64,000 nucleotides of DNA, from positions 1 through 64,000 of the forward strand of contig NZ_WOTA01000012.1 of assembly GCF_011516825.1 (NCBI RefSeq), in the 5' to 3' direction. Under the pieces are notes generated by a model, which saw only the letters and a list, made by a program, of their open reading frames with translations, did no database searches and was not told where the DNA came from. Both the position numbers and the translations under genes were made by a program. Every line of letters begins with the position of its first letter. Position 1 is the stretch's first letter. Of the stretch, positions 26,820 to 42,384 are shown piece after piece. This DNA comes from Acetobacter oeni. Lineage in GTDB: Bacteria; Pseudomonadota; Alphaproteobacteria; Acetobacterales; Acetobacteraceae.

Positions 26820-27502
26820 TGTTCCGTCGCTCCACAACACGCTACGGGACCACGCCCGAGCCCGTCACGCCCTACCAGAAAGCCGCACAGATCTGGGATG
26901 AGCGCATCGGCTCGGCCCGTGTGCAGGCCCGCAACTGGCGGTTGATGGCGTTCGGTTCCCTGTTCCTGTCCGCAGGTCTCGGGGCCGGGCTGGTCTGGCA
27001 GTCCGCGCGCGGCACCATCACGCCGTGGGTCGTGCAGGTCGACACGCTCGGTCAGGCGCAGGTCGTGGCGCCGGCGACGTCCGGCTACATGCCCGCTGAT
27101 CCGCAGATTGCCTGGTATCTGGCACAGTTCGTCCACGACGTGCGCTCCCTGTCATCCGATGCCGTCGTGGTCCGGCATAACTGGCTGCGCGCCTATAATT
27201 TCACCAGCGTTTCTGGTGCCGTGGCGCTGAACGATTATGCCCGCCTGAATGATCCGTTTTCGCGGATCGGGCACGAGCAGGTCGAGCTGGACATCGCTTC
27301 GGTAATCCGGGCCTCGCCCGCCAGCTTCCGCGTCGCCTGGACCGAGCGCCATTACCGTGACGGCGCGTTCACCGGCACCGAACGCTGGACCGCCATCGTG
27401 TCGGTTGTTCTGCGCACGCCGCGCGACGCTGATCATCTTCGGAAAAACCCGCTTGGAATCTACGTCTCTGCCATCAACTGGTCGAAGGAACTCGGGCAAT
27501 GA
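26816..27502 (+). CDS. trbF: TrbF (VirB8-like) protein
   Basis: A 228-residue bitopic inner-membrane protein. A short cytoplasmic N-terminus (TPYQKAAQIWDERIGSARVQ) precedes one membrane segment (about residues 42-62). The periplasmic NTF2-like domain has AWYLAQFVHDVRSLSSDAVV, RAYNFTS and NPLGIYVSAINWSKEL, all characteristic of TrbF/VirB8. It links the inner-membrane complex to the TrbG/TrbI core. Confidence 0.92.
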   Translation: MMFRRSTTRYGTTPEPVTPYQKAAQIWDERIGSARVQARNWRLMAFGSLFLSAGLGAGLVWQSARGTITPWVVQVDTLGQAQVVAPATSGYMPADPQIAWYLAQFVHDVRSLSSDAVVVRHNWLRAYNFTSVSGAVALNDYARLNDPFSRIGHEQVELDIASVIRASPASFRVAWTERHYRDGAFTGTERWTAIVSVVLRTPRDADHLRKNPLGIYVSAINWSKELGQ

Positions 27503-28500
27503 TCCGTCGCGCTCTTCGTGCTTTGCCGTTGCTAACCCTGCCCCTGGCGGGTTGCGCGCAACAGTACCATCCACCCGTCATACGATATGACGACGCGGCC
27601 CAGGCCACGCTCCTGCCTGATCCGCCGAAGCCTGTGCGGGTGGCGGAGGTGCCACAGCCACTCCCGCTGCCGGGCCAGCTCAAGCCGCTTCCGCCCTTAC
27701 GGCGTACCCATGTCGTGCCCGAGGCGGCTGACCCTACCGTGCGCGTGACCCAGGCCAATCTTGCCGCTCGCATCCAGCCGACGCGGGCCGGTTACGTGAA
27801 CGCGGTGCAGGTTTACCCCTACAGCGCGGGAGCGCTCTATCAGGTCTATGCTTCGCCCGGCGAGATCACCGACGTTATGCTCCAGCCGGGTGAAAAACTG
27901 GTGGGTACCGGCCCGGTCGCGGTGGGTGATACCGTGCGCTGGATCGTCGGCGATACCACCAGTGGCGCGGGCACGACCAGGCGCGTGCATATCCTGGTCA
28001 AGCCGACGCGACCGGATCTCATCACCAATCTGATCGTCAATACCGACCGGAGGAGCTACCTTGCCGAACTGCGGGCGACACCCACGACCTATATGGCGTC
28101 GGTGTCCTGGGATTATCCCGAGGACGACCTGATTGCCCTGCATCGGCAGGACAGCGACGCCGATGATGCAGCCCCGGTGGATGCGGGGCTGGCTCTGAAT
28201 GCGCTGAATTTCCGTTACGCTATTCAGCCGGTGAAAGGTGGCACGCCGCCCTGGCTGCCCAGCCGGGCGTTTGACGATGGCCACAAGGTCTATATCGCGT
28301 TTCCGTCCGGTATCGGGCAGGGCGAACTGCCGCCGCTGTTCGTGTTGGGGGCCGATGGCGGGCCGGAATTGGTGAACTACCGCGTCCGGCAGAACTGGAT
28401 GATCGTCGATCGCCTGTTTGCCGCCGCCGAATTGCGGCTGGGCGACAGGCATTCCGAGCAGCGGGTACGGATCGTGCGCACGGATGGCAGGAAGTCATGA
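27499..28500 (+). CDS. trbG: TrbG (VirB9-like) protein with a lipobox
   Basis: A 333-residue outer-membrane-complex protein of the TrbG/VirB9 family: YPYSAGALYQVYASPGEITDVMLQPGE, then VGDTVRWIVGDT and the C-terminal FDDGHKVYIAFP with VNYRVRQNWMIVDRLF. Its N-terminus has a lipobox, LPLAGC, so the mature protein should be lipid-anchored. Since no TrbH (the VirB7-like lipoprotein) is encoded, TrbG may anchor the complex itself; that is inference. It overlaps trbF and trbI by ATGA. Confidence 0.92.
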   Translation: MIRRALRALPLLTLPLAGCAQQYHPPVIRYDDAAQATLLPDPPKPVRVAEVPQPLPLPGQLKPLPPLRRTHVVPEAADPTVRVTQANLAARIQPTRAGYVNAVQVYPYSAGALYQVYASPGEITDVMLQPGEKLVGTGPVAVGDTVRWIVGDTTSGAGTTRRVHILVKPTRPDLITNLIVNTDRRSYLAELRATPTTYMASVSWDYPEDDLIALHRQDSDADDAAPVDAGLALNALNFRYAIQPVKGGTPPWLPSRAFDDGHKVYIAFPSGIGQGELPPLFVLGADGGPELVNYRVRQNWMIVDRLFAAAELRLGDRHSEQRVRIVRTDGRKS

Positions 28501-29699
28501 GCGGCGCGGAAGAGCGCCCGGAAGGGAATACGGGAGCCACCACAAGCGGAAGCGGAACAGGACCATCATCCCCGCCGCCCTCTCCCGATCTGCGGCTGCG
28601 CGCGCAGCGTCCGCCGGTGGTCCGGCTCTCGCGCCCCGTCATCTGGACGCTGGGTGGTGCGGGGATGCTCGCGATCGGTCTTGCGCTGGGCTACGCGCTG
28701 CAAAATGGTGCGCAGAAGGGGCCGCTCCAGGGGGCACAGGACACCGACACCCGCCCCTCGGCCGACGGGCTGGCCGCACTCCCCAATGACTATACCGCCA
28801 CCCCGAAACTCGGGCCGCCTTTGCCCGGCGATCTCGGCAAGCCGATCCTCGATGCACAGCGGAACGGTCGCGCGGGACCGGTTTCCGGCATGGGAGACCG
28901 GCGTGGCGATCAGGAGATCGAGGCGGCACGCACCAGCAGGCTCTTCGCGCAGATCGAGGCGCGGGAGGGCCAGGCTGCGCAGACGATTCCGGTCATGGCC
29001 ACCGCTCCCGGAGCACAGGCATCACCGACCGGCCCCGACCAGCAGACCGGCAATCGCGCCTTTCTGGCAGGTCAGCCGGATCGCGCGACGGTCAGCCCGG
29101 ACCGGATCGTATCTCCCGCCTCGCCCTATATGCTCCAGGCCGGGACCGTCATTGCCGGCGCGCTGAACACGAAGATCAGTTCCGATCTGCCCGGCCAGAT
29201 CGTGGGGCATGTGACCCAGAACGTCTATGACAGTCCGACAGGCCGGTTCTTGCTCGTCCCGCAGGGTAGCACCCTGTTCGGAGCCTATAACAGCGGCATT
29301 TCCTTCGGGCAGCAGCGCACCCAGATCATCTGGACGCGGCTGATCTATCCGAATGGCGAAAGCCTCGTCCTGGAAAAGCTGCCCGGTGGCGACGCCATCG
29401 GCCAGTCTGGCCTGTCCGATGAGGTGAACAATCATTGGGGGCAACTGTTCAAGGCGGCCCTCGTCACGACCCTCCTCAGCGTGGGCTCCGAGGCCGGGAC
29501 GTCATGGAACGAGAACAACCTGATGCAGGCCATCCGCTCCGGCGCGAGCAACGGGTTTTCTATGGTCGGCAACCGGCTGATTGATCGCAGCCTGAATATT
29601 CAGCCGACGCTGACAGACCGCCCGGGCCTGCCGTTCACGCTTATCCTGAATCGCGACCTTGTCCTGAAACCCTGGCACCCAAAGGAACCGGCTCCATGA
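28497..29699 (+). CDS. trbI: TrbI (VirB10-like) protein
   Basis: A 400-residue protein that spans the envelope. A cytoplasmic Gly/Ser/Pro-rich N-terminus leads to one membrane segment (about residues 50-68). A long flexible periplasmic part follows, then the VirB10 beta-barrel domain with LQAGTVIAGALNTKISSDLPGQI, PQGSTLFGAYNSGISFGQQR and the final PFTLILNRDLVL. It forms the channel core with TrbG. It overlaps the DUF2274 gene by ATGA. Confidence 0.94.
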   Translation: MSGAEERPEGNTGATTSGSGTGPSSPPPSPDLRLRAQRPPVVRLSRPVIWTLGGAGMLAIGLALGYALQNGAQKGPLQGAQDTDTRPSADGLAALPNDYTATPKLGPPLPGDLGKPILDAQRNGRAGPVSGMGDRRGDQEIEAARTSRLFAQIEAREGQAAQTIPVMATAPGAQASPTGPDQQTGNRAFLAGQPDRATVSPDRIVSPASPYMLQAGTVIAGALNTKISSDLPGQIVGHVTQNVYDSPTGRFLLVPQGSTLFGAYNSGISFGQQRTQIIWTRLIYPNGESLVLEKLPGGDAIGQSGLSDEVNNHWGQLFKAALVTTLLSVGSEAGTSWNENNLMQAIRSGASNGFSMVGNRLIDRSLNIQPTLTDRPGLPFTLILNRDLVLKPWHPKEPAP

Positions 29700-29956
29700 C
29701 GAAGCTGCGCATCACCGAAATTCCCGACGAGAAGCCGGTCCGTGTCACCGTGGACCTGCCTGCGGACCTGCATCGCGATCTCGTCGCTTATGCTGCCCTG
29801 GTCAGCCAGAACGGCCAGTCCGTCGATCCGGCCCGTCTCGTACCGCACATGATCCGTGGCTTTATCACCTCCGACCGCGCGTTCCGAAAGCTCCGGCAGG
29901 AGCCACGGCGGGCACCCGTTAAAACGCAGTCGCCTGCTGCTCCAGAAAACGGATGA
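29696..29956 (+). CDS. DUF2274 protein
   Basis: An 86-residue protein of the DUF2274 family, seen from KLRITEIPDEKPVRVTVDLPADLHRDLVAYAAL and the PARLVPHMIRGFITSDRAF ending. The fold looks like a ribbon-helix-helix. The gene is the usual last member of trb operons in these ICEs, and is probably regulatory. Its 3' end overlaps the convergent LysR gene by 38 bases. Confidence 0.88.
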   Translation: MTKLRITEIPDEKPVRVTVDLPADLHRDLVAYAALVSQNGQSVDPARLVPHMIRGFITSDRAFRKLRQEPRRAPVKTQSPAAPENG

Positions 29957-30845
29957 CTGTCCTCGCGGCCGGTGGGCAGCGCTCACGGTGCCAAGCCGCG
30001 CCATAGGCGAAGTGGGAAAATCCGTCCCCGTCGATGACTTCCACTACCGCGATCCGCTCCCGGATGGCAGCGGGCAGAAAACCCAGCCAGGCATCCGGCA
30101 ACAGAGCGATGCCGCTGCCATTCGCTGCCAATGCGACGACCCGCAGGCTTCTGACCGCCTCCTGACGTGTCACCGGCACGAATCCCGCCTGCCGCATCTT
30201 GCGCATCAAGAGCGCGAGCAGTTCCTCGCCGGTATCATCCTTGCCGATCAGAAAGATTCCATCATGCAACTCAGCCCATGACGCGGTTCCGACCTGTGCG
30301 ATCGGATGTTCGGCCGACATGATCGCAACGACACGATCGCTCCAGAGCGGGACGGTGGCCACCATGCTGCCGGGCAGGGGCAGCGTCATTATCGCGAGGT
30401 CGATCTCCTCCTGTTCCAGGGCCTGGAACAGTTCTTTTTTCGCATTATCCCGATAAGTGAAGGAGATACCGGGTTGCGCAAGGCTGTACGACTCCAGTAT
30501 CGCCGAGATCCGGCCGGGTGGGATGCTGCCCTGGACGCCCACGGAGATGACGCCGGTCTCGCCCCGGCTCCAACGCCGCGTGCGCTCGTACAGTCCGACT
30601 GTTCCATCGAGCAACTTCTCAGCCTCTCGCAGAAAGGCAACTCCCGCCGGGGTGAGCCGGGCACCGCTCGACGTGCGTCGAAAAAGGGAGACGCCAAGTC
30701 GCTCTTCCAGTAACCGCAAGGACCGGCTTACGGCAGATTGTTTGCCTCCCAGCGCCCGTGCGGCTCCATGGATACTTCCCTCCCTCGCGATGACACGCAC
30801 GAACAGCAATTCCCGCAGATCGAGAGGTGGTCGCCGAACCGACAT
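29919..30845 (-). CDS. LysR-type transcriptional regulator
   Basis: A 308-residue LysR-family regulator. The helix-turn-helix lies in residues 10-68 (LLFVRVIAREGSIHGAARALGGKQSAVSRSLRLLEERLG in pieces), followed by the periplasmic-binding-like sensor domain. A LysR gene convergent with the trb operon is a constant part of Tn4371-like conjugation modules, where it is sometimes called traR. It is also divergent from the SRPBCC-like gene at 31060, so it may control that gene, the transfer genes, or both. Its inducer is unknown. Confidence 0.88.
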   Translation of the reverse strand: MSVRRPPLDLRELLFVRVIAREGSIHGAARALGGKQSAVSRSLRLLEERLGVSLFRRTSSGARLTPAGVAFLREAEKLLDGTVGLYERTRRWSRGETGVISVGVQGSIPPGRISAILESYSLAQPGISFTYRDNAKKELFQALEQEEIDLAIMTLPLPGSMVATVPLWSDRVVAIMSAEHPIAQVGTASWAELHDGIFLIGKDDTGEELLALLMRKMRQAGFVPVTRQEAVRSLRVVALAANGSGIALLPDAWLGFLPAAIRERIAVVEVIDGDGFSHFAYGAAWHRERCPPAARTVIRFLEQQATAF

Positions 30846-31059
30846 TTTCTGTCTATCCCGATTTTTTGAAGACCTTCGGCATGACCTGCCAAAATCCAGT
30901 CATTGTGCTTTCAAGTCTGCAACAATAATTCGTTCACGATATATTATGACGTTACTCTCTGCCTTCGCCATGAAGCCATCGCAATATCCGCGCTGCGGTG
31001 CAAAATGCTCTTGTGGCATAGTGCGCTAATGTACCACCTCGCCGAAGAGAAATGGAAGC

Positions 31060-31629
31060 ATGATGAACCTATTGGACGAATTCATCCCGCGCTTCGATTT
31101 CAGCGAGCGACACAGTGTCGATATCTCCGCCCCGGCCAGTCGCATCATGAACGCGGTGGCTGCATGGCGGAATCAGGACGATCCGCTGGTTCGTGCCGCC
31201 ATCCGCCTGCGCGAAATGCCCGCCCGGCTGTTAGGCCATGCGCGGCAACGGAATCTGGACCTCACCGACTTCACGCTGCTGGAACGGCGAGGCGATGCCG
31301 CCCTGGTCTACGGCCTCGTCGGCGCGTTCTGGCGGGCGGATTACGGATTGTGCGACATTCCCACAACGGACGCTTTTCTCACCCCTTGCCATGATGACGT
31401 CTGCAAGCTCGCTCTGGGCTTCTCCATCCAGCCGGGACCACACGGTACCCAGTTGCTGGTGACGGAAACCCGCGTGTTTTGCGCCATGGACCGGGCCAGG
31501 CGTCGCTTCACGCCCTATTGGTATCTGATCCGCCCGGTCAGCGGCCTGATCCGCCGCCGCATGCTCGCGACCATCCGGGAACAGTCGGAGTCTCCGCCCT
31601 CTCATCACCCGCGCGCAGCATTGCCATGA
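31060..31629 (+). CDS. SRPBCC-like protein (DUF2867-type)
   Basis: A 189-residue soluble protein. The start (DFSERHSVDISAPASRIMNAV) and the sequence of alternating strands resemble SRPBCC/DUF2867 ligand-binding proteins: FTLLERRGDAALVYGLVGAFWR, FLTPCHDD and TQLLVTETRVFCAMDRARRRF. No catalytic motif is evident. The GST gene starts within its stop codon (ATGA), so the two are expressed together, plausibly in handling a small hydrophobic molecule. It is divergent from the LysR gene. Confidence 0.7.
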   Translation: MMNLLDEFIPRFDFSERHSVDISAPASRIMNAVAAWRNQDDPLVRAAIRLREMPARLLGHARQRNLDLTDFTLLERRGDAALVYGLVGAFWRADYGLCDIPTTDAFLTPCHDDVCKLALGFSIQPGPHGTQLLVTETRVFCAMDRARRRFTPYWYLIRPVSGLIRRRMLATIREQSESPPSHHPRAALP

Positions 31630-32258
31630 AGCTTTACGACTACCCCACCGCCCCCAATCCACGGCGTGTGCGCTTCTTCATCGCCGAGAAAGGGCTGACG
31701 ATTCCTATCGTTACAGTTGATCTGGCGAAGCACGAGCAGTTCGCGCCCACGTTCCGCCTCCTTAACCCCTCCTGCACCGTTCCCGTCCTGGAACTGGACG
31801 ACGGCACCGCGATCAGCGAGGTGCCCGTCATCTGCCGTTATCTGGAGGAGTTGCATCCCGATCCCCCTCTGATGGGCGCGACGCGAGAACAACGCGCCAT
31901 CATCGGCATGTGGGACCGGCGCATGGAGATCGACGGCTATCTTGCCGCGATGGAAGCCGTACGGAACAGCCTGCCGGGACTGTCGGGCCGCGCACTGGTC
32001 GGACCACACGGCTATGCGCAAATCCCCGAGCTTACCGCGCGCGGCCGTCAGAGGCTGGCCGATTTCATGGCCGATCTGGACACCCGGCTGCGCGATGTAC
32101 CCTATGTCGCGGGCAATGCCTTCTCGATCGCTGACATCACCGCGTTCGTCACGCTGGATTTCGCCCGTAGCCGACTGAAGCTGGCATTGCCAGACGAGGC
32201 CTCCGCCCTGCATGCATGGGTCACGAGCATCGCGAAACGGCCAGGAGCACAGGCATGA
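31626..32258 (+). CDS. Glutathione S-transferase
   Basis: A 210-residue cytosolic glutathione S-transferase. The thioredoxin-like N-terminal domain has YPTAPNPRRVRFFIAEKG at the active site, then PSCTVPVLELDDGTAISE with the cis-Pro (TVPVL) and ISE glutathione-binding loop. The helical C-terminal domain carries the FSIADITAF motif. ATG 31626 overlaps the upstream stop, and a third frame overlaps its own stop by ATGA. It is cargo at the right end of the ICE. Confidence 0.9.
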   Translation: MKLYDYPTAPNPRRVRFFIAEKGLTIPIVTVDLAKHEQFAPTFRLLNPSCTVPVLELDDGTAISEVPVICRYLEELHPDPPLMGATREQRAIIGMWDRRMEIDGYLAAMEAVRNSLPGLSGRALVGPHGYAQIPELTARGRQRLADFMADLDTRLRDVPYVAGNAFSIADITAFVTLDFARSRLKLALPDEASALHAWVTSIAKRPGAQA

Positions 32259-32499
32259 CGGCCTTTGCCATACTCTTGTTAGCCGGCATCTCGTTCAAGA
32301 GCGCTGTTCTACTTATGAACATCACCCGCCCGAACATCCTGACGATGTGTGCCACGGGATTCGGCACGCTACGCCGTAGCCACCCCCGATTTGCTCCGGG
32401 CTGCTTACAAAATGCTTACATTCCTGTGCTACGGCACACTGTAAACAAAAAACGGTCCCGAAGGAACGTCTTTAACCGCCTGATTTTCCTTGGAAAATC
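32255..32499 (+). pseudogene. Broken ORF running into the tRNA at the ICE end
   Basis: An ORF starts at ATG 32255 overlapping the GST stop and begins MTAFAILLLAGISFKSAVLL, a plausible membrane segment. Recognisable protein character fades after about 20-30 codons. The frame continues to 32563 only by passing through tRNA-Gly, where it gives the well known artefact GAGDGIRTHDPN. It looks like the first part of a third gene of the SRPBCC-GST operon whose remainder was lost at the element end. Confidence 0.4.
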
Positions 32500-32574
32500 T
32501 GGAGCGGGCGATGGGATTCGAACCCACGACCCCAACCTTGGCAAGGTTGTGCTCTACCCCTGAGCTACGCCCGC
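32500..32574 (-). tRNA. tRNA-Gly (GCC), ICE integration site
   Basis: On the minus strand the sequence folds as a tRNA: acceptor GCGGGCG paired with CGCCCGC, D-loop with AGCTCAGGGGTAGAGC, anticodon loop TTGCCAA (anticodon GCC at 32542-32540), T-arm GGGTTCGAATCCC and an encoded CCA end at 32502-32500. Its 3' end faces the ICE, as expected if the element integrated into the tRNA 3' part and restored it. The other attachment copy is not in the window. Confidence 0.97.
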
Positions 32575-32703
32575 GTCCTGTGCGACGAGGGCTCGTTTAG
32601 ATCAGTCATCCGGACTGCGCAAGAGACAAAACGCGTTTTGCACCCGAAAAAAACGGAGCCCGATCATTCACTTCTCCATTTCCGGAAAAATACGAACAGA
32701 CTT

Positions 32704-33402
32704 TCAGATTCCAGGCAGTTCGTTCACCGTCACCACACGCCAGGCTCCGTCATGACACTCGAGGATCGTAAGGGAAAGATTCTGGACTGAAAAATGCAGA
32801 GCTGTATCCGGTGAAATCCTGAGAGCGTGCGCCAGCGCGGCACGTATCGCGCCACCGTGGCTCACAACAACCATATCGCGAGACGCATTTTCCTCAGCCA
32901 GCCGGTCCAGAGCCGCGCCCACGCGGGTGCAGACCGTGACCATGCTTTCCCCGCCCGGTGGACATTCACTCCCGGAAAGAGGCCAGAACTGATGTGGCGG
33001 CAGCTTCAGTTTTCCCGGTAACTCCCCATGTGGCAGCCCCTGCCAGTTCCCGAGATCCTGCTCGACCAGATCCGACTCGACGATGAGACCACGCGCTCCG
33101 TATCCTGCATTCTGAATTGTTTCCGCCGTCCGGCGCGTGCGCCTTAAAGGCGTGATAAACCATAAAGCCTCTGAAGGCAGACGTCGGGCCAGCGCCTCAT
33201 ACATTGATTGCTGCGCAATCAGACTTTCCGGACACAGCGGAACGTCCATGGTTCCATAAAGCATGGCCCGGGCGTTTTGCTCCACCAAGGCATGACGTAT
33301 GAGCCAGAAACGCGTAATCCCGGCTTCCAGCTTTGGCGCATCCAGAAAATTACCGTGATTTTGCTGTCCTTCAGGAATAAATCCGGAGGAAACCACACCC
33401 AT
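32704..33402 (-). CDS. Histidine phosphatase (phosphoglycerate mutase-like)
   Basis: A 232-residue branch 1 histidine phosphatase. The catalytic histidine is His37 in FWLIRHALVEQN, where the usual RHG is RHA as in many CobC-like enzymes. Further active-site parts are YGTMDVPLCPES, a conserved TPLRRTRRTAE and VVVSHGGAIRA with the second histidine. The first 25 residues extend beyond the fold. The start codon overlaps the stop of the upstream PLP-fold gene (TGATG). The substrate is unknown; alpha-ribazole phosphate or a sugar phosphate are possibilities only. Confidence 0.85.
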   Translation of the reverse strand: MGVVSSGFIPEGQQNHGNFLDAPKLEAGITRFWLIRHALVEQNARAMLYGTMDVPLCPESLIAQQSMYEALARRLPSEALWFITPLRRTRRTAETIQNAGYGARGLIVESDLVEQDLGNWQGLPHGELPGKLKLPPHQFWPLSGSECPPGGESMVTVCTRVGAALDRLAEENASRDMVVVSHGGAIRAALAHALRISPDTALHFSVQNLSLTILECHDGAWRVVTVNELPGI

Positions 33403-35600
33403 CAGACGTCTCCGTTTTGTTTCAGCAGATTACCCGCGATCTTATCCACATCCTGAAGTGGTGCGTAAGTCGGCAGGGGATCAACGGCCAGAATCCGGTC
33501 CCAATGCCGTCGGATCAGACCAATTTTTGCAATAACCTCGCGCGCGTCATCGATTTCTCGCGCCAGGCGCAAATCCGTATCAAGCTTTCTGTGAGACGGC
33601 TCGCCTGATACCAAGCGAGCTCCGGCTGAAATTCGCAACGCACCCGCACATGCACCGCCGAGCGCAGCGGAAGGAACAGCAACTGGCTGGCCGATATGGC
33701 ACAACAGCCTTGCCAGACCACTCACTCTTTCCGGCTCGTTCGCCGCGAATACATGGCTCAGATCTGCATTCAGCCAGCGATAAAGCCGCCGGGCATCAGC
33801 AAGCCCCAGCGGCGTCATTTCCTCTTTCCTAAGGGAATTCCGAATGCCTGAATCCGGTGCTCTCACAAGAAAGCTGAGGATTGTCGTCATATCATCCCAT
33901 GCACCAGGCAAAGCAGGCCGCACAGGAACCGGTGCCTCTAGCAGAGCGATATCATCGCACTCCGTCAGCGCCGAGCGCACTTCCCGAAGAAACCGCTCAA
34001 GGCGCATGCGCGTCTCTGTCGCCGGAACGGCCCGGAATGCCTCCATTTCGGCGATCGCCGCATGCCATCTCAGGGTCAGGCCGCAATTCGTTGCCTGCGG
34101 CAAATTTTCCGTCGCCTGGCAAGCCGGCCACTCAGTGCGCCCGGCATAATCGGACAAACCTGCCGGCAGACCACCGTGGTTCAGCCTTTTACGCCAGTGA
34201 GCCGGAAGAAGCAGCGCCCCGCAAAATGGCGGCCCGGTGATAAACTTCGATCCGGTAATCATGACAGCCCGGCCTCTGGCGACCCAGTTCCCAATTCGCT
34301 CCCGCGTCAGCCGATCCTGGCAGGCATCAACGACAATATCGATTCTCTCACCGAATTTCTGTTCGAAATTTTCCAGTGTCTCCTCATCCGGCGCCAGCAG
34401 ACCGGTTTTCGACAGATCCAGTTGATGCAGGAGAATGTGGTGTCCCCGTGCAATCGCACCCGCGATCTGTTCCCGACATCGATCAGCCAGGATATCGGGA
34501 GCCACAGCATCGCCATTCGCTTCGCGCAACCGGATGGCTTCGACCTCAGTACGGGCCTCCCTGTTTTCCGGATCAGCAAATCCGAAACCGTCGATGATTT
34601 CACCATGAACCACTTTCGAACGCCGGGCCGTATCGTCCGCGAAGTGACGCCCGGCAGCCGCGAGCGGCACACCACTCCCTGTTTCGTCCGGTGCAATCAG
34701 AATATTTGTAACCGGCCTCGTTCCCGCTCCAAGCAACGAAATCGCCAGAGCAGCGAGTTCACAATCGGTGCCTGACGGGGCAAGCACGACCCGGTCCTCG
34801 CCAGGCAGGTTGAAATATGAAGCAAGGAACATACGGGCTTCACTGGCAAGCGCTGCAAGAAGGACTTCGCCATCATCACGGATTAAAGCCCGCTGCAAAC
34901 GCTGACGTGCTTTTTCCGCGCCGGCAAAACCCCGCTCCGATACGGACGATGCGGTCGAAGACGCAAATGTAATCGCCCAGGGCCGCGGCCGATGTGAACA
35001 GCCGTAGTGATTAAGTCCGGTCCGCGGATCAAGCAGCAACCGTGCGTCTCCGCCCGTCGCCATCAGGGTCTCGGTCGGACCAATAAGACCCCACGAACGA
35101 TCCAGCCATGACGTCAGGTCTTCCAGATCCTGCCCGGAAAGCTGTTTCGGCACGTGCGACGGGACGGGAAGCAGAAGCCGCAACATCGGCCAGAGTTCAT
35201 TGATAGCATCCTGCTGAAGTGGCGTGTCGTCGCCGAGCAGATCCACCCAGTCCGGCTTGCGGGTTTCTTTATCCGGAGATCCTGCATCCAGCCCGTAGAA
35301 CAGCGCTGCTGTTCGTGACGCGGCAAAACTCGCCCTTACGATCCATCTCTCCGGCGATAACTCCGGCATTCCATCCAGCAGACTCGCCAGTTCGAGAGCA
35401 TGCCTCAGAACGAAAGCCTGATAGCGCGCGGTGTTATGGCTGACAGCGTCCTCACTGATATCGATCGTTCCGTCAGACCTGACACGGAAGGAACCGGGAG
35501 TCGTGGAAATGAGGCGAATATTGCGTTCTTCCGCAATAACTCTCAGATCCGGCCGATCGGAACCCTTTAAAAGTTCCGGAGTGGGAAAGCCTGCAAGCAT
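33402..35600 (-). CDS. Large PLP-fold (fold type I) protein of unknown function
   Basis: A 732-residue protein with the features of a fold-type-I pyridoxal-phosphate enzyme in its middle. APSGTDCELAALAISL resembles the cofactor phosphate-binding loop. VVDACQ has the conserved Asp425, and MITGSKFITGPP offers Lys452 as the Schiff-base lysine, followed by CGALLLP as in class V aminotransferases. The first 190 and last 220 residues match no family I recognise. No signal peptide is seen. It is coupled by TGATG to the histidine phosphatase, and is divergent from rfbB. Enzyme class is inferred; substrate is unknown. Confidence 0.75.
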   Translation of the reverse strand: MLAGFPTPELLKGSDRPDLRVIAEERNIRLISTTPGSFRVRSDGTIDISEDAVSHNTARYQAFVLRHALELASLLDGMPELSPERWIVRASFAASRTAALFYGLDAGSPDKETRKPDWVDLLGDDTPLQQDAINELWPMLRLLLPVPSHVPKQLSGQDLEDLTSWLDRSWGLIGPTETLMATGGDARLLLDPRTGLNHYGCSHRPRPWAITFASSTASSVSERGFAGAEKARQRLQRALIRDDGEVLLAALASEARMFLASYFNLPGEDRVVLAPSGTDCELAALAISLLGAGTRPVTNILIAPDETGSGVPLAAAGRHFADDTARRSKVVHGEIIDGFGFADPENREARTEVEAIRLREANGDAVAPDILADRCREQIAGAIARGHHILLHQLDLSKTGLLAPDEETLENFEQKFGERIDIVVDACQDRLTRERIGNWVARGRAVMITGSKFITGPPFCGALLLPAHWRKRLNHGGLPAGLSDYAGRTEWPACQATENLPQATNCGLTLRWHAAIAEMEAFRAVPATETRMRLERFLREVRSALTECDDIALLEAPVPVRPALPGAWDDMTTILSFLVRAPDSGIRNSLRKEEMTPLGLADARRLYRWLNADLSHVFAANEPERVSGLARLLCHIGQPVAVPSAALGGACAGALRISAGARLVSGEPSHRKLDTDLRLAREIDDAREVIAKIGLIRRHWDRILAVDPLPTYAPLQDVDKIAGNLLKQNGDV

Positions 35601-35771
35601 AAATGCTACCCATTCTGTCGTTAAATAAAAATCATCGCCCCAGGGCTATGGTTAATGTGAGACGTAACGCGTAGCTCGTTCAGTAACGTATAAGGTGCTT
35701 CTAGTGATTGAGTCCGCTCTCCGCTATACGCAAAGCGCAGCCCCTTCGGGCATTCGAAACGGGATGGTTTG

Positions 35772-36854
35772 ATGCGTATTCTATTAACCGGCGGATGTGG
35801 ATTCATCGGATCCGCCGTAATCCGGCACCTGATTGGCGGAACCGAACACTCAGTCATGAACGTGGACTGCATGACTTATGCAGCATCACCTGAAACGGTG
35901 CAGAGTGCCGCATCATCGGATCGGTACCAGTTTGCTCAGGTGAACATCTGTGATGCTCCGGCGCTGGCGGAACTGTTCACCACCTTCCGCCCCGACGCGG
36001 TGATGCACCTCGCGGCCGAAAGCCACGTAGACCGCTCTATCGACGGCCCGGATGTCTTTATCCAGACCAATGTCGTCGGCACATATACTATGCTGGAGGC
36101 AGCGCGCGCTTACTGGCAGACGCTGGGTGACGACGCACGCAAGGCTTTTCGCTTCCATCACATCTCCACGGACGAAGTGTTCGGCGCACTGGAACCGGGC
36201 GAACCGCCGTTCACGGAAACCACGTCCTACGATCCGCGCAGCCCTTATTCAGCATCGAAGGCCTCATCCGACCATCTGGTGCGCGCCTGGTATCATACTT
36301 ATGGGCTGCCGACTTTCGTCACCAACACCACAAACAACTACGGAATCTGGCACTTCCCGGAAAAACTGATCCCGCTGGTAACGATCAACGCGATCGAAGG
36401 CAAGGAACTGCCTGTTTACGGGAAAGGCGAAAATATCCGCGACTGGCTCTTTGTCGAGGATCATGCTGAAGCTCTCGTACGGGCCGTTGAAATCGGGATA
36501 CCCGGTGAGACCTACGCCATCGGGGCACGGCAGCCGCGCTCCAACCTTGAGGTCGTCAGAACCATTTGTCAGGTTCTTGATGAGCTTTCACCTGATCCGG
36601 CAGGGCCACGCGAGCGTCTTATCCGTTTCGTATCCGATCGTCCGGGACATGATTTCAAATACGAAATCGATCCCACACACGCAGAAAAATCGCTCGGCTG
36701 GAAAGCAAAACATAACTTCGAGTCCGGCATTCGTCGCACAGTGCAATGGTATCTTGATAACCATTCATGGTGGCAGTCCATACGGGAACGTCGATATACT
36801 GGTGAACGCCTCGGCCAGACCGTAAAAACAAAATCCGGAACTGATTCCAAATGA
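35772..36854 (+). CDS. rfbB: dTDP-glucose 4,6-dehydratase
   Basis: A 360-residue NAD-dependent dehydratase, second step of dTDP-L-rhamnose synthesis. The Rossmann motif is TGGCGFIGS (usually TGGAGFIGS). The catalytic region has HISTDEVFG and [15 protein letters not shown], then NNYG and [22 protein letters not shown] 35772 gives the usual N-terminus; a TTG three bases earlier extends the frame. It overlaps rfbA by ATGA and heads the rhamnose operon rfbB-A-C-D. Confidence 0.95.
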
Positions 36855-37750
36855 GTAAGACCCCACCCGTTCAGACAAATATGAAGGGCATTCTGCTGGC
36901 AGGAGGATCGGGGACACGCCTTTATCCTATGACCCTTGCGGCAAGTAAGCAGCTGCTCCCGGTTTATGATAAACCGATGATTTATTATCCGCTGACGACA
37001 CTTATGCTCGCCGGCATCCGGGATATCATGATCATCTCCACGCCGGCGGATCTGCCGCAGTTTAAGCGTCTCCTGGGCGACGGATCTCAGTTCGGTGTCC
37101 GTTTTGAATACCGCGAACAGCCAAGCCCCGACGGAATCGCGCAGGCCTTTCTCATCGCAGGAGACTGGATTGAAGGGTGTCCCTGCGCGCTGGTGCTCGG
37201 AGACAATCTGATCTTCGCCGATCATCTGTCAGTGCTGCTGCGTGCTGCCGCCACACGCCCAAAAGGTGCTACGGTTTTTGCCTACCAGGTTCGTGACCCT
37301 GAGCGTTATGGCGTCGTCAGCTTCGATGAAACAGGAAAGGCCCTGTCTGTCGAAGAAAAGCCCGCTTACCCGGCTTCGAACTGGGCCATTACAGGGCTTT
37401 ATTTCTATGACAATCGCGTTGCGGAATTTGCCCGTCAGGTCCGGCCATCGGCACGCGGTGAACTGGAAATCACCGACCTCAACCGCTTTTATCTTGAAGA
37501 GGGAAGTCTGCACGTTGATCGTCTGAGCCGTGGCTGTGCATGGCTGGATGCCGGCCTTCCGGAGAGTCTGATGCAGGCCGGGCAGTTTGTGCACACTATT
37601 CAGGCCCGGCAGGGGATGCTGGTCGGCTCACCTGCGGAAGTCGCATTCCGCATGGGATATATTGATGCCGATGCCCTGCGTGCTCATGCTGCGAAGATGG
37701 GCAAAACCGAACTGGGACGGATGCTCAGAGAACTGGCCGATCAGGGCTGA
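36851..37750 (+). CDS. rfbA: Glucose-1-phosphate thymidylyltransferase
   Basis: A 299-residue nucleotidyltransferase that makes dTDP-glucose, the first step of dTDP-L-rhamnose synthesis. The signature [14 protein letters not shown] is followed by the conserved [39 protein letters not shown] and [13 protein letters not shown] also match. The first ten residues are extra; an internal Met (MKGILLAGG) would match the common start. A strong terminator-like hairpin lies just downstream, before rfbC. Confidence 0.95.
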
Positions 37751-37799
37751 TTTCATCGCGCAGACGCCGCGGATTTATCCCGCCGGTGGTCTGCTGCAT

Positions 37800-37836
37800 A
37801 AAAACACACCCTCAGGCATAGCCAGGGTGTGTTTTT
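37800..37836 (+). terminator. Terminator-like hairpin between rfbA and rfbC
   Basis: A perfect 13-bp stem, AAAAACACACCCT (37800-37812) and AGGGTGTGTTTTT (37824-37836), with an 11-base loop, ending in a run of T on the top strand. A and T runs on both sides make it potentially bidirectional. It lies in the 130-bp gap between rfbA and rfbC and could reduce or uncouple expression of the distal genes. Confidence 0.8.
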
Positions 37837-37880
37837 CTGTATCACAAAATTACCGCATTATTATTCTACGGAGCTGAAGT

Positions 37881-38441
37881 ATGAAGGTAGAACGCCTGGA
37901 AATTCCTGATGTCATTCTCATTACACCTCCGCGCTTTTCCGATAATCGTGGTTTTTTTTCAGAGACCTATAATATCCAGCGCATGATGGACGCCGGAATT
38001 ACACAGCCTTTCGTTCAGGATAACCAGAGCCTTTCACGTCAGAAAGGAGTCGTTCGAGGCCTTCATTGTCAGCTTGACCCGCATGCTCAGGGCAAACTCA
38101 TACGTTGTACCAGAGGTGCGATTTGGGATGTGGCAATCGACGCCCGAACCGGCTCTCCCACTTATGGTAAATGGGTCGCGGCAGAACTGTCAGAAGAAAA
38201 CTGGTCTCAACTCTGGATTCCGCCCGGTTTTCTGCACGGGTTTTGTACACTGGCAGAAGATTCAGAGGTGCAGTACAAATGTACCGGTCTCTACGATAAA
38301 GCTTCTGAACGCGCTGTAATCTGGAACAGCCAGGAACTCGCCATTGACTGGCCTGTTCAGCCCGGCGCTGCAGTACTGTCCGGAAAAGATCTCGAAGCAC
38401 CGGATTTTTCGGCTGCAAAAGACTGGTTTCATTACAAATGA
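37881..38441 (+). CDS. rfbC: dTDP-4-dehydrorhamnose 3,5-epimerase
   Basis: A 186-residue cupin-fold epimerase, third step of dTDP-L-rhamnose synthesis. Family motifs are RGFFSETYN, VQDNQSLSRQKGVVRGLHCQ with the catalytic histidine in GLHCQ, GAIWDVAIDAR, LWIPPGFLHGFC and YKCTGLYDKASERAV. Length is normal. It overlaps rfbD by ATGA. Confidence 0.95.
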   Translation: MKVERLEIPDVILITPPRFSDNRGFFSETYNIQRMMDAGITQPFVQDNQSLSRQKGVVRGLHCQLDPHAQGKLIRCTRGAIWDVAIDARTGSPTYGKWVAAELSEENWSQLWIPPGFLHGFCTLAEDSEVQYKCTGLYDKASERAVIWNSQELAIDWPVQPGAAVLSGKDLEAPDFSAAKDWFHYK

Positions 38442-39346
38442 CAAGTACAGATTCCGATACCCGCTCTATTCTCGTCACAGGTGGAAACGGTCAGCTTGCC
38501 ACCTCCCTTGCCAATCTCGGAGGGGAAAAGATCCGTCGCGTCGGGCGCCCGGAATTCGATTTCGAGCGTCCTGAAACAATTGAAGCCACAATCAAAGCCT
38601 GTAATCCCGCAGCGATCGTGAACGCCGCCGCATGGACAGCGGTTGATCTCGCTGAGAAAGAAGTTGCCGGCGCGGAAGCAGCAAACCGTGATGGCCCGGC
38701 TCTGCTCGCTGCCATTTGCGCAGAGCGGAACATCCCTTTCATCCACGTCTCAACAGATTATGTTTTTTCCGGGGATAAGGGATCACCCTATACAGAGACG
38801 GACGCCGTTTCCCCGGAAACTGTTTACGGGCTCACAAAAGCAGAAGGCGAGCGGCTCGTACTCCGCGCGGACCCAAAAGCAATCATCCTTCGGACTTCCT
38901 GGGTCTATTCCGCTCACGGCAAAAATTTTGTGCGTACCATGATCAGTGCAGGCGCCAGAAACTCTGTTTTGAAGGTCGTGGGGGATCAGCGCGGAAATCC
39001 GACCAGTTCGGATGATCTGGCGAAAGCCATTCTGGCGATCCTGGCTTTGATTGAGGAAAGCGGCTGGAAGGATGAATATGCAGGCATTTATCATGCCTGC
39101 GGCACGGGTGAAGCCACCTGGCATGAACTCGCCGTTGCAGCGCTCGAACAGGCAGCCCGCCACAGACAACGGATGCCGGAAATTACATCGATCCGAACTG
39201 AAGACTGGCCCACTCCGGCAAAACGTCCGGCAGATTCACGCATGGACAACAGCAGGCTTGCTCAGGTCTTCAACGTGTACATGCCGGAATGGCGTGAAAG
39301 CGTCGCGCGAACTGTGGACTCTCTGTTCGCGGAAAAAATATCCTGA
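38438..39346 (+). CDS. rfbD: dTDP-4-dehydrorhamnose reductase
   Basis: A 302-residue NAD(P)H-dependent SDR-type reductase that completes dTDP-L-rhamnose. It has VTGGNGQLATSL at the nucleotide site, NAAAWTAVDLAEKE, VSTDYVFSGDKG and the catalytic YGLTKAEGE. YHACGTGEATWHELA and RPADSRMDNSRL near the C-terminus are typical. It overlaps rfbC, and a glycosyltransferase gene follows after 45 bp. Confidence 0.95.
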   Translation: MTSTDSDTRSILVTGGNGQLATSLANLGGEKIRRVGRPEFDFERPETIEATIKACNPAAIVNAAAWTAVDLAEKEVAGAEAANRDGPALLAAICAERNIPFIHVSTDYVFSGDKGSPYTETDAVSPETVYGLTKAEGERLVLRADPKAIILRTSWVYSAHGKNFVRTMISAGARNSVLKVVGDQRGNPTSSDDLAKAILAILALIEESGWKDEYAGIYHACGTGEATWHELAVAALEQAARHRQRMPEITSIRTEDWPTPAKRPADSRMDNSRLAQVFNVYMPEWRESVARTVDSLFAEKIS

Positions 39347-39356
39347 ACGATATGAA

Positions 39357-39384
39357 ATTGCGTACAATATTGTAATGACGCAAT
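39357..39384. promoter_or_regulatory. Nested palindrome before the glycosyltransferase gene
   Basis: ATTGCGT (39357-39363) and ACGCAAT (39378-39384) form an inverted repeat whose 14-base centre contains a second palindrome, ACAATATTGT (39364-39373). It occupies the rfbD-glycosyltransferase gap and could be an operator or RNA hairpin. Role unknown. Confidence 0.35.
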
Positions 39385-39391
39385 ACATCCG

Positions 39392-40387
39392 ATGAGTGCC
39401 GCTCCCATAACCTCCGCTCCCTGGGTTCCACGCCTCATCGGAGCCGGTCATGATCCGACAGACGGACCGCCTGTCGCGATCCTGCTTTCGCTCTACAATG
39501 GCGAAACATTCCTTAACCGTCAGCTCGATTCGTTTCTTGACCAAAATTATCAAAACTGGATTCTGCTCTGGCGTGATGACGGCTCAGCCGATGCGTCCCG
39601 GGCAATTCTGAGAGCGTTTCAGGCAAACCGGGGTGCCGGCCGTTGTCTGGAGATCGATAGTGAATCAGATACGAATATCGGCATAGCAGCTTCTTACTGG
39701 CGTCTTATGGACTGTGCGCCCGCAGGACATCTGATTGCTTTCGCAGACCAGGATGATGTCTGGCTTCCGGAAAAACTGTCGCGAGGTGTCGCTGCTCTTA
39801 AAGACGTTCCCGCAAATACACCAGGCATGTATTTCGGTCGACAGATTCTGACAGACCGACAGTTGAAGCCGATTATGATCTCTCCCCCCATCACGAACCT
39901 TCGCGGCATTTTCTCCGCGCTCGCACAAAACGTTGCAACGGGTTGCACGGTCATCCTGAACGAAAAGGCCCTGAGCCTTCTGGACGCAATGCGGCCGCCA
40001 CCACCTTTTATTCTCCACGACTGGGCAGCTTATCTCGCTGTCTCTGCCGCCGAAGGAACTGTGTGCGTTGATGAGCATCCCGCCATATTATATCGGCAAC
40101 ATTCCGGAAATGCCGTAGGCGCTCCGTCTTCGTGGCTGCGGCGCAGTTATGCCGCGGCCCGCAGAGGTCCAACCGCATTTATGACAATTTTTCGTTCAAA
40201 TCTTGTATGGCTTCTCAGACACCGGGGTCTCGTAACCCCATTAACCACGTTACGCCTTGAAAAGCTGGAAAGAGGTCTAGCGGGAACACGCCGCGAACGA
40301 TTACAGTTACTGAGACAATTCCCTGACCTGACACGTTCCGGCTTTAGCGAAAAACTACTTTTCCGCCTGTGGTTCCTCTTTGGATAG
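39392..40387 (+). CDS. Family 2 glycosyltransferase
   Basis: A 331-residue GT-A-fold glycosyltransferase. The nucleotide-sugar site begins VAILLSLYNGETFLNRQLDS, with WRDDGSADAS and the DxD-like FADQDDVWLPEKL, as in rhamnosyltransferases acting on O-antigen or exopolysaccharide. A C-terminal basic helix region is present but no clear transmembrane segment. Position behind rfbBACD suggests it transfers rhamnose from dTDP-rhamnose; that donor is inferred. Confidence 0.9.
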   Translation: MSAAPITSAPWVPRLIGAGHDPTDGPPVAILLSLYNGETFLNRQLDSFLDQNYQNWILLWRDDGSADASRAILRAFQANRGAGRCLEIDSESDTNIGIAASYWRLMDCAPAGHLIAFADQDDVWLPEKLSRGVAALKDVPANTPGMYFGRQILTDRQLKPIMISPPITNLRGIFSALAQNVATGCTVILNEKALSLLDAMRPPPPFILHDWAAYLAVSAAEGTVCVDEHPAILYRQHSGNAVGAPSSWLRRSYAAARRGPTAFMTIFRSNLVWLLRHRGLVTPLTTLRLEKLERGLAGTRRERLQLLRQFPDLTRSGFSEKLLFRLWFLFG

Positions 40388-40434
40388 CCGGTCGCCGGCG
40401 ACCGACCTGTCAGCGCTTTACCTTCCCCTCTGTT

Positions 40435-40617
40435 TCACGATTCCCGCCGCAATGCCGTTCTGTTTTCTCCGGATGTGTCGGCCAGATCTTTCATATAACT
40501 GAGCAGCGATGCTGTGCGCGTCACCGTGAAACCAAGAGTTTGCAATGTGGTGAGCATATCAGGTGTCACACCGGCTTTATCACGCAGCAACGCGATATCA
40601 TCGTTCTCCAGATCCAT
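40435..40617 (-). CDS. Small hypothetical protein, 60 aa
   Basis: A short minus-strand ORF. From ATG 40617 it reads MDLENDDIALLRDKAGVTPDMLTTLQTLGF (in two pieces), a plausible helical protein, then KDLADTSGENRTALRRES. The frame is open further upstream to 40782, but that part is irregular and overlaps the corA leader. No family was recognised. It is convergent with the glycosyltransferase gene. Confidence 0.4.
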   Translation of the reverse strand: MDLENDDIALLRDKAGVTPDMLTTLQTLGFTVTRTASLLSYMKDLADTSGENRTALRRES

Positions 40618-40808
40618 TACCCATTTTCCCGCCTGCGCATCCCTGTCCGGGGATCTTTCATATATTCTTAACCGCAAAACGATTGACCAACGATTAAAGC
40701 CCTGTTCCGGCACAACGTTACAGCCACGGAAATTGATGATAGACCCCGACCTCATGCCGGGGTTTTTACAGCCTGTGTGCAAAGTGAAATCATCGCAGGA
40801 GTGGGTTT

Positions 40809-41780
40809 ATGTTTCTGGCTCACAGAACTGGCCAGCCGGCACGTGCCGTCGAAACGGAGGCCGATGCTGCCGGCGCTACGTGGCTTGATCTGATTGACCC
40901 GACCGATGCGGAACATGCTCTGGCAACTAAAATTGCCAGCCAGGATATTCCACGCCGTGCCAATCTCGATGAAATCGAGAGTTCCTCACGTCTTTTCACT
41001 CATGACGATGCCGTTTACCTGTCAACGCCGCTCGTACGACGGACGGAAACCGAACTTGTCTGCCCGCCGATTGGCTTTGTACTTACACCCAAAATTCTCA
41101 TCAGCGTCCGTTTTTCACAATATGCGTCGTTCGATATTGCAGCGCGCCAGCTTGCAGACTCTGCTACACCTCTGAGCAGCGATGACGTTCTGATTCTGCT
41201 GCTCGAGGCGATCGTAGACCGCCTGGCAGACGTCCTTGAGCATGTAGGACTGGCACTGAACCAGCTCTCGAGAGATGTTTTCGCTGGCTATAGTCCCCAA
41301 GCCGGAAGGATAGCTGCGTGGCAGCGTGCAATTCTGCGTCGCGTCGGGCACTCAGAGGATTTTTCCTCCCTCGTCAGAGACAGTCTGCTCGGTCTCGACC
41401 GTATCGCCATTTTTGTCAGTGAAACGACGAAGCACCGCCTTGCTCACTCTCTCACCACGCGACTGGCCACAGTAAATCGCGATATCGCCTCGCTTAATGA
41501 CTTTGTGTCACAGCAGTCTAATAAGGTTCAGTTCCTGCTTGATGCTGCTCTGGGTTTCATCAGCATCGAGCAAAACGACGGAATGAAGATTCTGACCGTG
41601 GTCAGTTTTATTGGTGTGGCGCCAACGCTGATCGCGGGTGTCTACGGGATGAATTTTAAGGATATTCCCGAACTGACATGGAGCTTTGGCTACTGGTACG
41701 CTCTGACAGCCATGGCGTCTTCGGTCATCCTGCCGCTTCTGTGGTTCTGGAGACGTGGCTGGCTGGGAGAAGTAAAATAA
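40809..41780 (+). CDS. corA: CorA-family magnesium/cobalt transporter
   Basis: A 323-residue CorA-type channel. A large cytoplasmic domain of strands and long helices (ATWLDLIDPTDAEHALATKI, LLLEAIVDRLADVLEHVG) leads to two C-terminal membrane segments. The signature YGMNF lies between them (VSFIGVAPTLIAGVYGMNF), and the second segment is followed by the basic C-terminus FWRRGWLGEVK. It forms a pentamer in the inner membrane and imports Mg2+ or Co2+. Confidence 0.92.
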   Translation: MFLAHRTGQPARAVETEADAAGATWLDLIDPTDAEHALATKIASQDIPRRANLDEIESSSRLFTHDDAVYLSTPLVRRTETELVCPPIGFVLTPKILISVRFSQYASFDIAARQLADSATPLSSDDVLILLLEAIVDRLADVLEHVGLALNQLSRDVFAGYSPQAGRIAAWQRAILRRVGHSEDFSSLVRDSLLGLDRIAIFVSETTKHRLAHSLTTRLATVNRDIASLNDFVSQQSNKVQFLLDAALGFISIEQNDGMKILTVVSFIGVAPTLIAGVYGMNFKDIPELTWSFGYWYALTAMASSVILPLLWFWRRGWLGEVK

Positions 41781-42384
41781 ACCGAAGTTCAGATATGCGA
41801 TTACTACAAATGAGATACCGCCCCACAGCATTGCTCATTACGGGGCTCTGAGTCCTGCTTCTTTCCGGACTGTCCGCAAAATCCGTCACGAAATCAGGCG
41901 GCGCGTTGCCATCCGCTGCCGGGTCCGCACAGCCTCTGATTGACCGATAGGAACAACCCCTGGCGTTATGGCGGATCATCGCCGGGCAGCACACACCGGA
42001 TTATCGTTGGACTGCGGCAAAGCGGAGAACACAGCATGCCGGTAGAATGTGCAGTTCCTGATCGCAATCTGCGGGCGTTGATGTTCGGCACCCTGTCCGG
42101 CTCGTTCGATATGCCAACAGCAGGCAGAGGGTCTGTTCACTGCCGGATGACCGTTCCCCTGAGTGACCGGATACTGCCTCTGGAGGGCATCTGCAGTCCC
42201 GGCACACCGGGAGGTTCGGTGGCCACCCGACAAACGCCGGTATTGCTCAGCGCACAGCTGAATAACTTCCTGTCGCCGGATACTTCAACTGCTGAGTACT
42301 GGCTGACTGCCAGAGGTTTTCCCGAAGCCTTTCACAAGGCCAGCTCCGTTCAGGCACGGTAATTCCTGCCCCGGAACCTTACGC

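Follow-up and report, generated by a model that had tools for sequence, protein, structure and literature searches.

The stretch of DNA analysed here, the window, comprises positions 1 to 64,000 (64,000 nt) of contig NZ_WOTA01000012.1 from Acetobacter oeni and carries on its reverse strand a pair of genes encoding a 732-aa protein of an unnamed family, which we propose to be a pyridoxal 5'-phosphate (PLP) enzyme, and a histidine phosphatase (Table 1). The junction of the two genes is CGGAGACGTCTGATGGGTGTG, in which the TGA of the first gene and the ATG of the second overlap by one base within TGATG, as the initial annotation had described, and a GGAG motif lies 7 nt upstream of the phosphatase ATG. 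A tRNA-Gly gene is located downstream of the pair (32500-32574, reverse strand), and scans for promoters and terminators gave signals not above the level of shuffled sequences. The gene for the 732-aa protein is intact and real, since it has matches in 35/37 genomes of the same genus and in 127/397 Acetobacteraceae genomes, and since 26 columns are invariant across the 40 rows of the family alignment (A1).

Table 1. Features of the gene pair and of the adjoining cluster in the window. Conservation counts refer to 73 aligned relatives of the 732-aa protein.
Feature	Coordinates	Strand	Basis or remark
732-aa class V-like PLP enzyme, unnamed family	33402..35600	(-)	Open reading frame (ORF) with ATG start, family alignment, hhalign
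N-terminal extension, residues 1-165	35106..35600	(-)	Alpha-helical in a low-confidence model; only in Acetobacteraceae among the rows compared
Predicted PLP phosphate loop, S276-G-T-D279	34764..34775	(-)	S276 73/73, T278 71/73, D279 71/73; aligned with class V loop
D425-A-C-Q428, predicted pyridine-N aspartate and ring glutamine	34317..34328	(-)	D425 73/73, Q428 73/73; aligned with class V Asp...Gln
K452, expected Schiff-base lysine (TGSKFxxGPP)	34245..34247	(-)	72/73; aligned with class V Lys
R656, candidate carboxylate-binding Arg, C-terminal domain	33633..33635	(-)	72/73, one gap
Histidine phosphatase (branch 1), operon neighbour, CobC-like	32704..33402	(-)	232 aa; PF00300 E 8.7e-43
rmlB-rmlA-rmlC-rmlD (polABCD), divergent	35769..39346	(+)	TIGR01181, TIGR01207, TIGR01221, TIGR01214, each over cut-off
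Glycosyltransferase at the place of polE	39392..40387	(+)	Glycosyltransferase matches below cut-off only; placed like polE in the published cluster

Comparison of a core profile of the 73 relatives (72 used) with 37 class V proteins, drawn from PF00266 loci by BLAST matches to a SufS- or IscS-like seed, gave an hhalign score of 53.9 (E 5.8e-6, probability 85%) and placed the phosphate loop, an 'SKTG' segment, D425-A-C-Q428 and S451-K452 in register with their class V counterparts. The 93 controls scored far lower, with 13.1 for the reversed profile, at most 28.7 for 60 column shuffles and at most 29.5 for 32 other gene families from the same loci; the profiles of the ATP-grasp proteins described below gave E values of 0.3 and 0.59, and class V against group II decarboxylases, used as a positive control, gave 6.3e-12. 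The earlier suggestion of a PLP-type protein to be compared with class V aminotransferases was therefore apt, and the core residues on which it was based (SGTDCE at 276-281, D425 and K452) are all present in the 732-aa ORF. The protein shares with the class V aminotransferase/cysteine desulfurase superfamily (PF00266) the order and spacing of the phosphate loop, of Asp-x-x-Gln and of S-x-K / SK-x-x-GP-x-x-GAL, but differs from it by a Thr or Val at the stacking position, by conserved GGDxR...N-x-Y and SSTAS segments and by the N-terminal extension found in Acetobacteraceae. Because Pfam assigns no family to the protein even at E 1, so that PF00266 is not reached, we use the label class V-like and do not count the protein as a PF00266 member. 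Nine relatives scanned with Pfam likewise reached no PLP family, NCBIfam had no match for the 732-aa protein and PADLOC none for five family proteins, and searches of PDB sequences with the single protein (E 1) or the 40-row profile (E 10) returned nothing. Thus, the orphan status noted initially holds for these libraries, and an enzyme that is kept widely and whose predicted active site is intact has yet to receive a name in Pfam, NCBIfam or PDB. No paper on the family came up in our literature searches, a negative limited to those searches. We also considered membership in the group II PLP decarboxylases (PF00282), which are of fold type I as well and of which a separate member is a frequent operon partner of the family; this assignment was dropped, as the 732-aa family gave no significant profile match (E 0.088 with A1 and 0.48 with the core profile).

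The conserved residues suggest how such an enzyme might work. K452 would form the internal aldimine, D425 together with Q428 would hold the PLP ring and the S276GTD loop its phosphate, and R656 may grip the carboxylate of the substrate, as we take the aligned Arg of class V enzymes to do; the substrate would then be a small amino acid that reacts at its alpha-carbon, by transamination, racemisation or beta-elimination. That the protein is instead a degenerate PLP fold serving some purpose other than catalysis appears very improbable: a second copy in one genome carries Arg in place of the Lys, indicating that loss of the lysine is tolerable in that copy, but the remaining rows hardly vary at Lys, Asp, Gln and phosphate loop. 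This second, divergent copy (L086:5986-8163, genome G501) also has an altered SGTD loop, lies beside a gene for a major facilitator superfamily transporter and is perhaps a PLP-independent or dead paralogue. A sulfur-donor function akin to that of cysteine desulfurases seems improbable as well. The matched class V rows do look SufS- and IscS-like, as labelled from sequence, and C634 is present in 30/33 of the long forms of the protein, but this Cys occurs in just 46/73 relatives overall (16/40 short forms), it aligns only weakly with the class V Cys loop, and four separate PF00266 matches already exist in the window genome.

Both ends of the protein had originally been described as long and unassigned. 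This is correct for the N-terminal ~165 residues, which are truly extra, but not for the C-terminal end, which belongs to the conserved core and contains the GQPV and LR656 motifs. Coverage of at least 76 of residues 15-164 is found in 33/73 relatives, all from Acetobacteraceae, and the others cover at most 43. The low-confidence model predicts helices at residues 57-76, 83-105, 130-143 and 156-181, with 10-residue means of the predicted local distance difference test (pLDDT) of 41 to 82 over residues 81-170.

Matches within the genus include five partial ones, of which that of G029 spans 88 residues only and those of G002, G003, G005 and G010 come in 2-3 pieces; the two genomes without a match are 1.5-1.7 Mb in size. 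Across the class the gene is rare, being detected in 3/289 genomes by single sequence (window genome included) and in 6/385 by profile, four of these outside Acetobacteraceae. Other families bear it in part, namely 11/119 genomes of f171, 19/119 of f13 (perhaps sphingomonad-like) and 7/39 of f60. In addition, 33 plasmid records carry a relative, all of them from Rhizobium, Sinorhizobium or Neorhizobium, and no relative was confirmed in the viral contigs searched. In an 80-row tree, the window protein groups with the relatives from its genus, within a clade of 25 Acetobacteraceae rows that is supported at 100/99; judging from this gene tree the PLP gene looks vertically inherited within the Acetobacteraceae clade.

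The genes of the relatives pair tightly with ATP-grasp genes, which provides a concrete handle on the substrate. Partner genes were counted in 39 Acetobacteraceae loci picked among the matches, 11/11 loci of f171, 6/7 of f60, one f78 locus, 16/19 of f13 (with coordinates for all 19) and 12/33 plasmid records. In f13, a D-Ala-D-Ala-ligase-like ATP-grasp gene (PF07478 E 2.2e-11) adjoins the PLP gene divergently in 19/19 PLP-bearing genomes, and among the 100 f13 genomes without the PLP gene a match to the ATP-grasp profile is found in 24, with just one (G992) over 590 bits. The co-occurrence is significant by Fisher's test for any match (p 1.6e-10) and for the high-scoring type (4e-21), the latter figure being partly circular because the profile was built from PLP-adjacent loci. 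The PDB relatives of this partner are mostly D-Ala-D-Ala ligases, but its score is far below the D-Ala-D-Ala ligase cut-off (61.5 vs 245.65 bits). A MobA-like nucleoside triphosphate (NTP) transferase gene is located near the PLP gene in 6/16 f13 loci, and in three f13 genomes (G1015, G924 and G1021) a copy of the ATP-grasp gene is present on each side of the PLP gene.

The 18 loci of f171, f60 and f78 show a second arrangement, in which an ATP-grasp-like gene (16/18) and a PLP decarboxylase gene of the PF00282 family (15/18) occur within the fetched stretch on the same strand. At L096 the two are located at distances of 2.4 and 3.6 kb, and a flagellin gene intervenes. FlbT and flagellin were identified by Pfam in L094 and L096, but a flagellar role as a common theme was rejected, given that 5/18 of these loci contain an FlbT-type gene cluster and that the clustered loci of f13 and Acetobacteraceae all lack one. 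On the plasmids of Sinorhizobium medicae and Rhizobium jaguaris, the PLP gene follows a giant nonribosomal peptide synthetase (NRPS) or NRPS/polyketide synthase gene, with a phosphopantetheinyl transferase nearby; in R. tumorigenes it lies between a tetratricopeptide repeat protein gene and a PLP decarboxylase gene, and in Neorhizobium it comes after genes for a D-aminopeptidase and a D-alanine aminotransferase. The R. jaguaris plasmid also carries, at a distance of about 4 kb from its NRPS and PLP genes, a row of genes (L216:17247-21154) for a phosphocholine cytidylyltransferase-family protein, a protein that matches SelA weakly, a GHMP kinase and a CDP-alcohol phosphatidyltransferase, which looks like a phospholipid head-group cluster.

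Taken together, we favour the view, at a probability of roughly 0.55, that the 732-aa protein represents an intact, class V-like PLP enzyme of fold type I, making a building block from an amino acid, and that its relatives feed amide-forming enzymes. The family, the active-site residues, the distribution and the partners are read from sequence; from them we infer PLP binding, an amino-acid substrate and the building-block role. Outside the clade of acetic acid bacteria, the relatives would supply an amino-acid block to ATP-grasp ligases, often together with a PLP decarboxylase, and in single cases to an NRPS, such that the theme there would be amino-acid chemistry feeding amide formation, with the PLP enzyme probably acting on the free amino acid. 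Racemisation would fit best with the D-Ala-ligase-like partner and the D-amino-acid neighbours, although nothing here proves it. The form found in acetic acid bacteria carries the N-terminal extension, predicted to be helical, and its gene is translationally coupled to, or lies closely before, that of an unrelated and near-universal phosphatase. More tentatively, we can imagine an alphaproteobacterial module in which the PLP family produces an unusual amino acid, perhaps a D-form or one with a modified side chain, which either of two unlike ATP-grasp types or an NRPS joins by an amide bond, the products being surface structures (at flagellar loci, for some f171 and f60 members) or small peptides; acetic acid bacteria might have kept the PLP half alone, extended by the N-terminal domain, to make an amino acid specific to their lineage. 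If an amino-acid enzyme is correct, relatives annotated as 'hypothetical protein' could be renamed accordingly.

Several observations weigh against an amino-acid enzyme that serves amide formation, and they concern both the enzyme and its partners. Two AlphaFold2 models from three-row alignments (window protein and two relatives; full length and cropped) reached a pLDDT of 38.3 and 41.3, so low that the assignment of the fold comes from sequence profiles only. In class V PLP enzymes, a His or an aromatic residue stacks on the PLP ring; at the aligned position the family has T in 55, V in 16 and S in 2 of the 73 relatives, which is atypical, and another residue could take over the stacking. The equivalence of R656 with the Arg of the class V 'R-x-S-x-G' motif derives from a weak sub-alignment (E 0.043). 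Among the partners, the ATP-grasp signal of the f171/f60 protein is weak (PDB D-Ala-D-Ala ligase, E 0.004; Synapsin_C in one of its relatives, 20.6 bits and thus under the cut-off of 22.5), and comparison of its profile with that of the f13 ATP-grasp protein gave no similarity. Because profiles A3, A4 and A5 of the partners derive from PLP-adjacent loci, high scores there arise partly by construction. Moreover, 10/12 plasmid loci, those of R. tropici and its kin included, contain none of the three partner profiles, and no ATP-grasp or decarboxylase profile match was found at positions 27001-42000 of the window or in 31 Acetobacteraceae loci (L048-L078). All 39 Acetobacteraceae loci considered, a decarboxylase is present in just two, both short-form, and either ATP-grasp type in 0. 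We also considered the f171/f60 ATP-grasp-like protein as a general partner in acetic acid bacteria and rejected it, because its distant homologue in the window genome is encoded elsewhere (C6:175663-176565), beside other genes, and because a match exists in 12/27 PLP-bearing genomes searched. Upstream of the distant homologue, a stretch of that contig (L174, G000:C6:167000-185000) encodes a protein of 462-466 aa whose N-terminus is similar, and the same is seen in the matching stretches of G015 and G018.

The PLP enzyme and the phosphatase encoded next to it had been suggested to form a two-step pathway for a phosphorylated amino compound; compounds resembling phosphoserine or threonine phosphate would be examples. 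The tight coupling in the window speaks for such a pathway, as does the adjacency on the same strand in 24/33 long-form loci examined, at least 9 of which have an ATG sharing 1 or 4 bases with the PLP stop (no start is listed in range for 5 of the 24). This arrangement is, however, confined to one supported clade of the tree (24/25 rows) and broken in L063, where the phosphatase gene is kept ~57 kb away on the same contig, and the fetched stretches around short forms contained no phosphatase homologue. Moreover, the phosphatase is present in 54/58 Acetobacteraceae genomes, namely in 31/34 with the PLP gene and in 23/24 without a detected one, where the 58 genomes are our own choice and 'without' rests for 19 of them on single-sequence sensitivity only. 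The proposed check on the co-occurrence of the two genes thus reveals no mutual dependence in their distribution, and none of our results points to a phosphorylated amino substrate. The nearest NCBIfam and PDB relatives of the 232-aa phosphatase are alpha-ribazole phosphatase CobC and glucosyl-3-phosphoglycerate phosphatase, but its best NCBIfam match (ribazole_cobC, TIGR03162) misses the curated cut-off with 103.8 vs 162.9 bits. Because the phosphatase is common both with and without the PLP gene, a dedicated pathway is not supported and appears unlikely to us; the coupling is real, but we regard the phosphatase as a general, near-universal and unrelated neighbour of the PLP enzyme. Translational coupling alone can therefore mislead, here by way of a general gene of Acetobacteraceae.

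On its other side, the PLP gene is flanked by the divergent rml genes, which together with the following glycosyltransferase gene match the order of the published pol cluster polABCDE (PMC5553594, PMC5050591). The PLP enzyme might accordingly provide an amino-modified residue for a rhamnose-containing pellicle or capsule polysaccharide, a role that we consider rather unlikely. In its favour, rmlB is a divergent neighbour of the PLP gene, directly or separated by one small ORF, in 19/41 loci, all of them long-form, and one report states that the capsular pellicle polysaccharide of A. tropicalis requires the pol cluster (PMC5553594). No adjoining rmlB is present, however, in other acetic acid bacteria (L057-L060, L067 and L069) or in the clustered loci outside Acetobacteraceae, and for the former reason a polysaccharide role remains an alternative to the amino-acid enzyme proposed above. 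Class V enzymes, furthermore, are not known as the usual sugar aminotransferases, which we count against this role.

Three further features lie within a few kb of the gene pair in the window. A glutathione-transferase-like protein is encoded on the forward strand at 31605-32258, its top match being the FtsZ-binding protein FzlA, far below cut-off. A LysR-type regulator is encoded on the reverse strand at 29919-30845, with AlsR, GltC and CidR as top matches, each far below cut-off. Finally, the region 27499-29699 contains conjugative type IV secretion genes, encoding a TrbI/VirB10-type protein (below cut-offs) and TrbG (TIGR02775, over cut-off).

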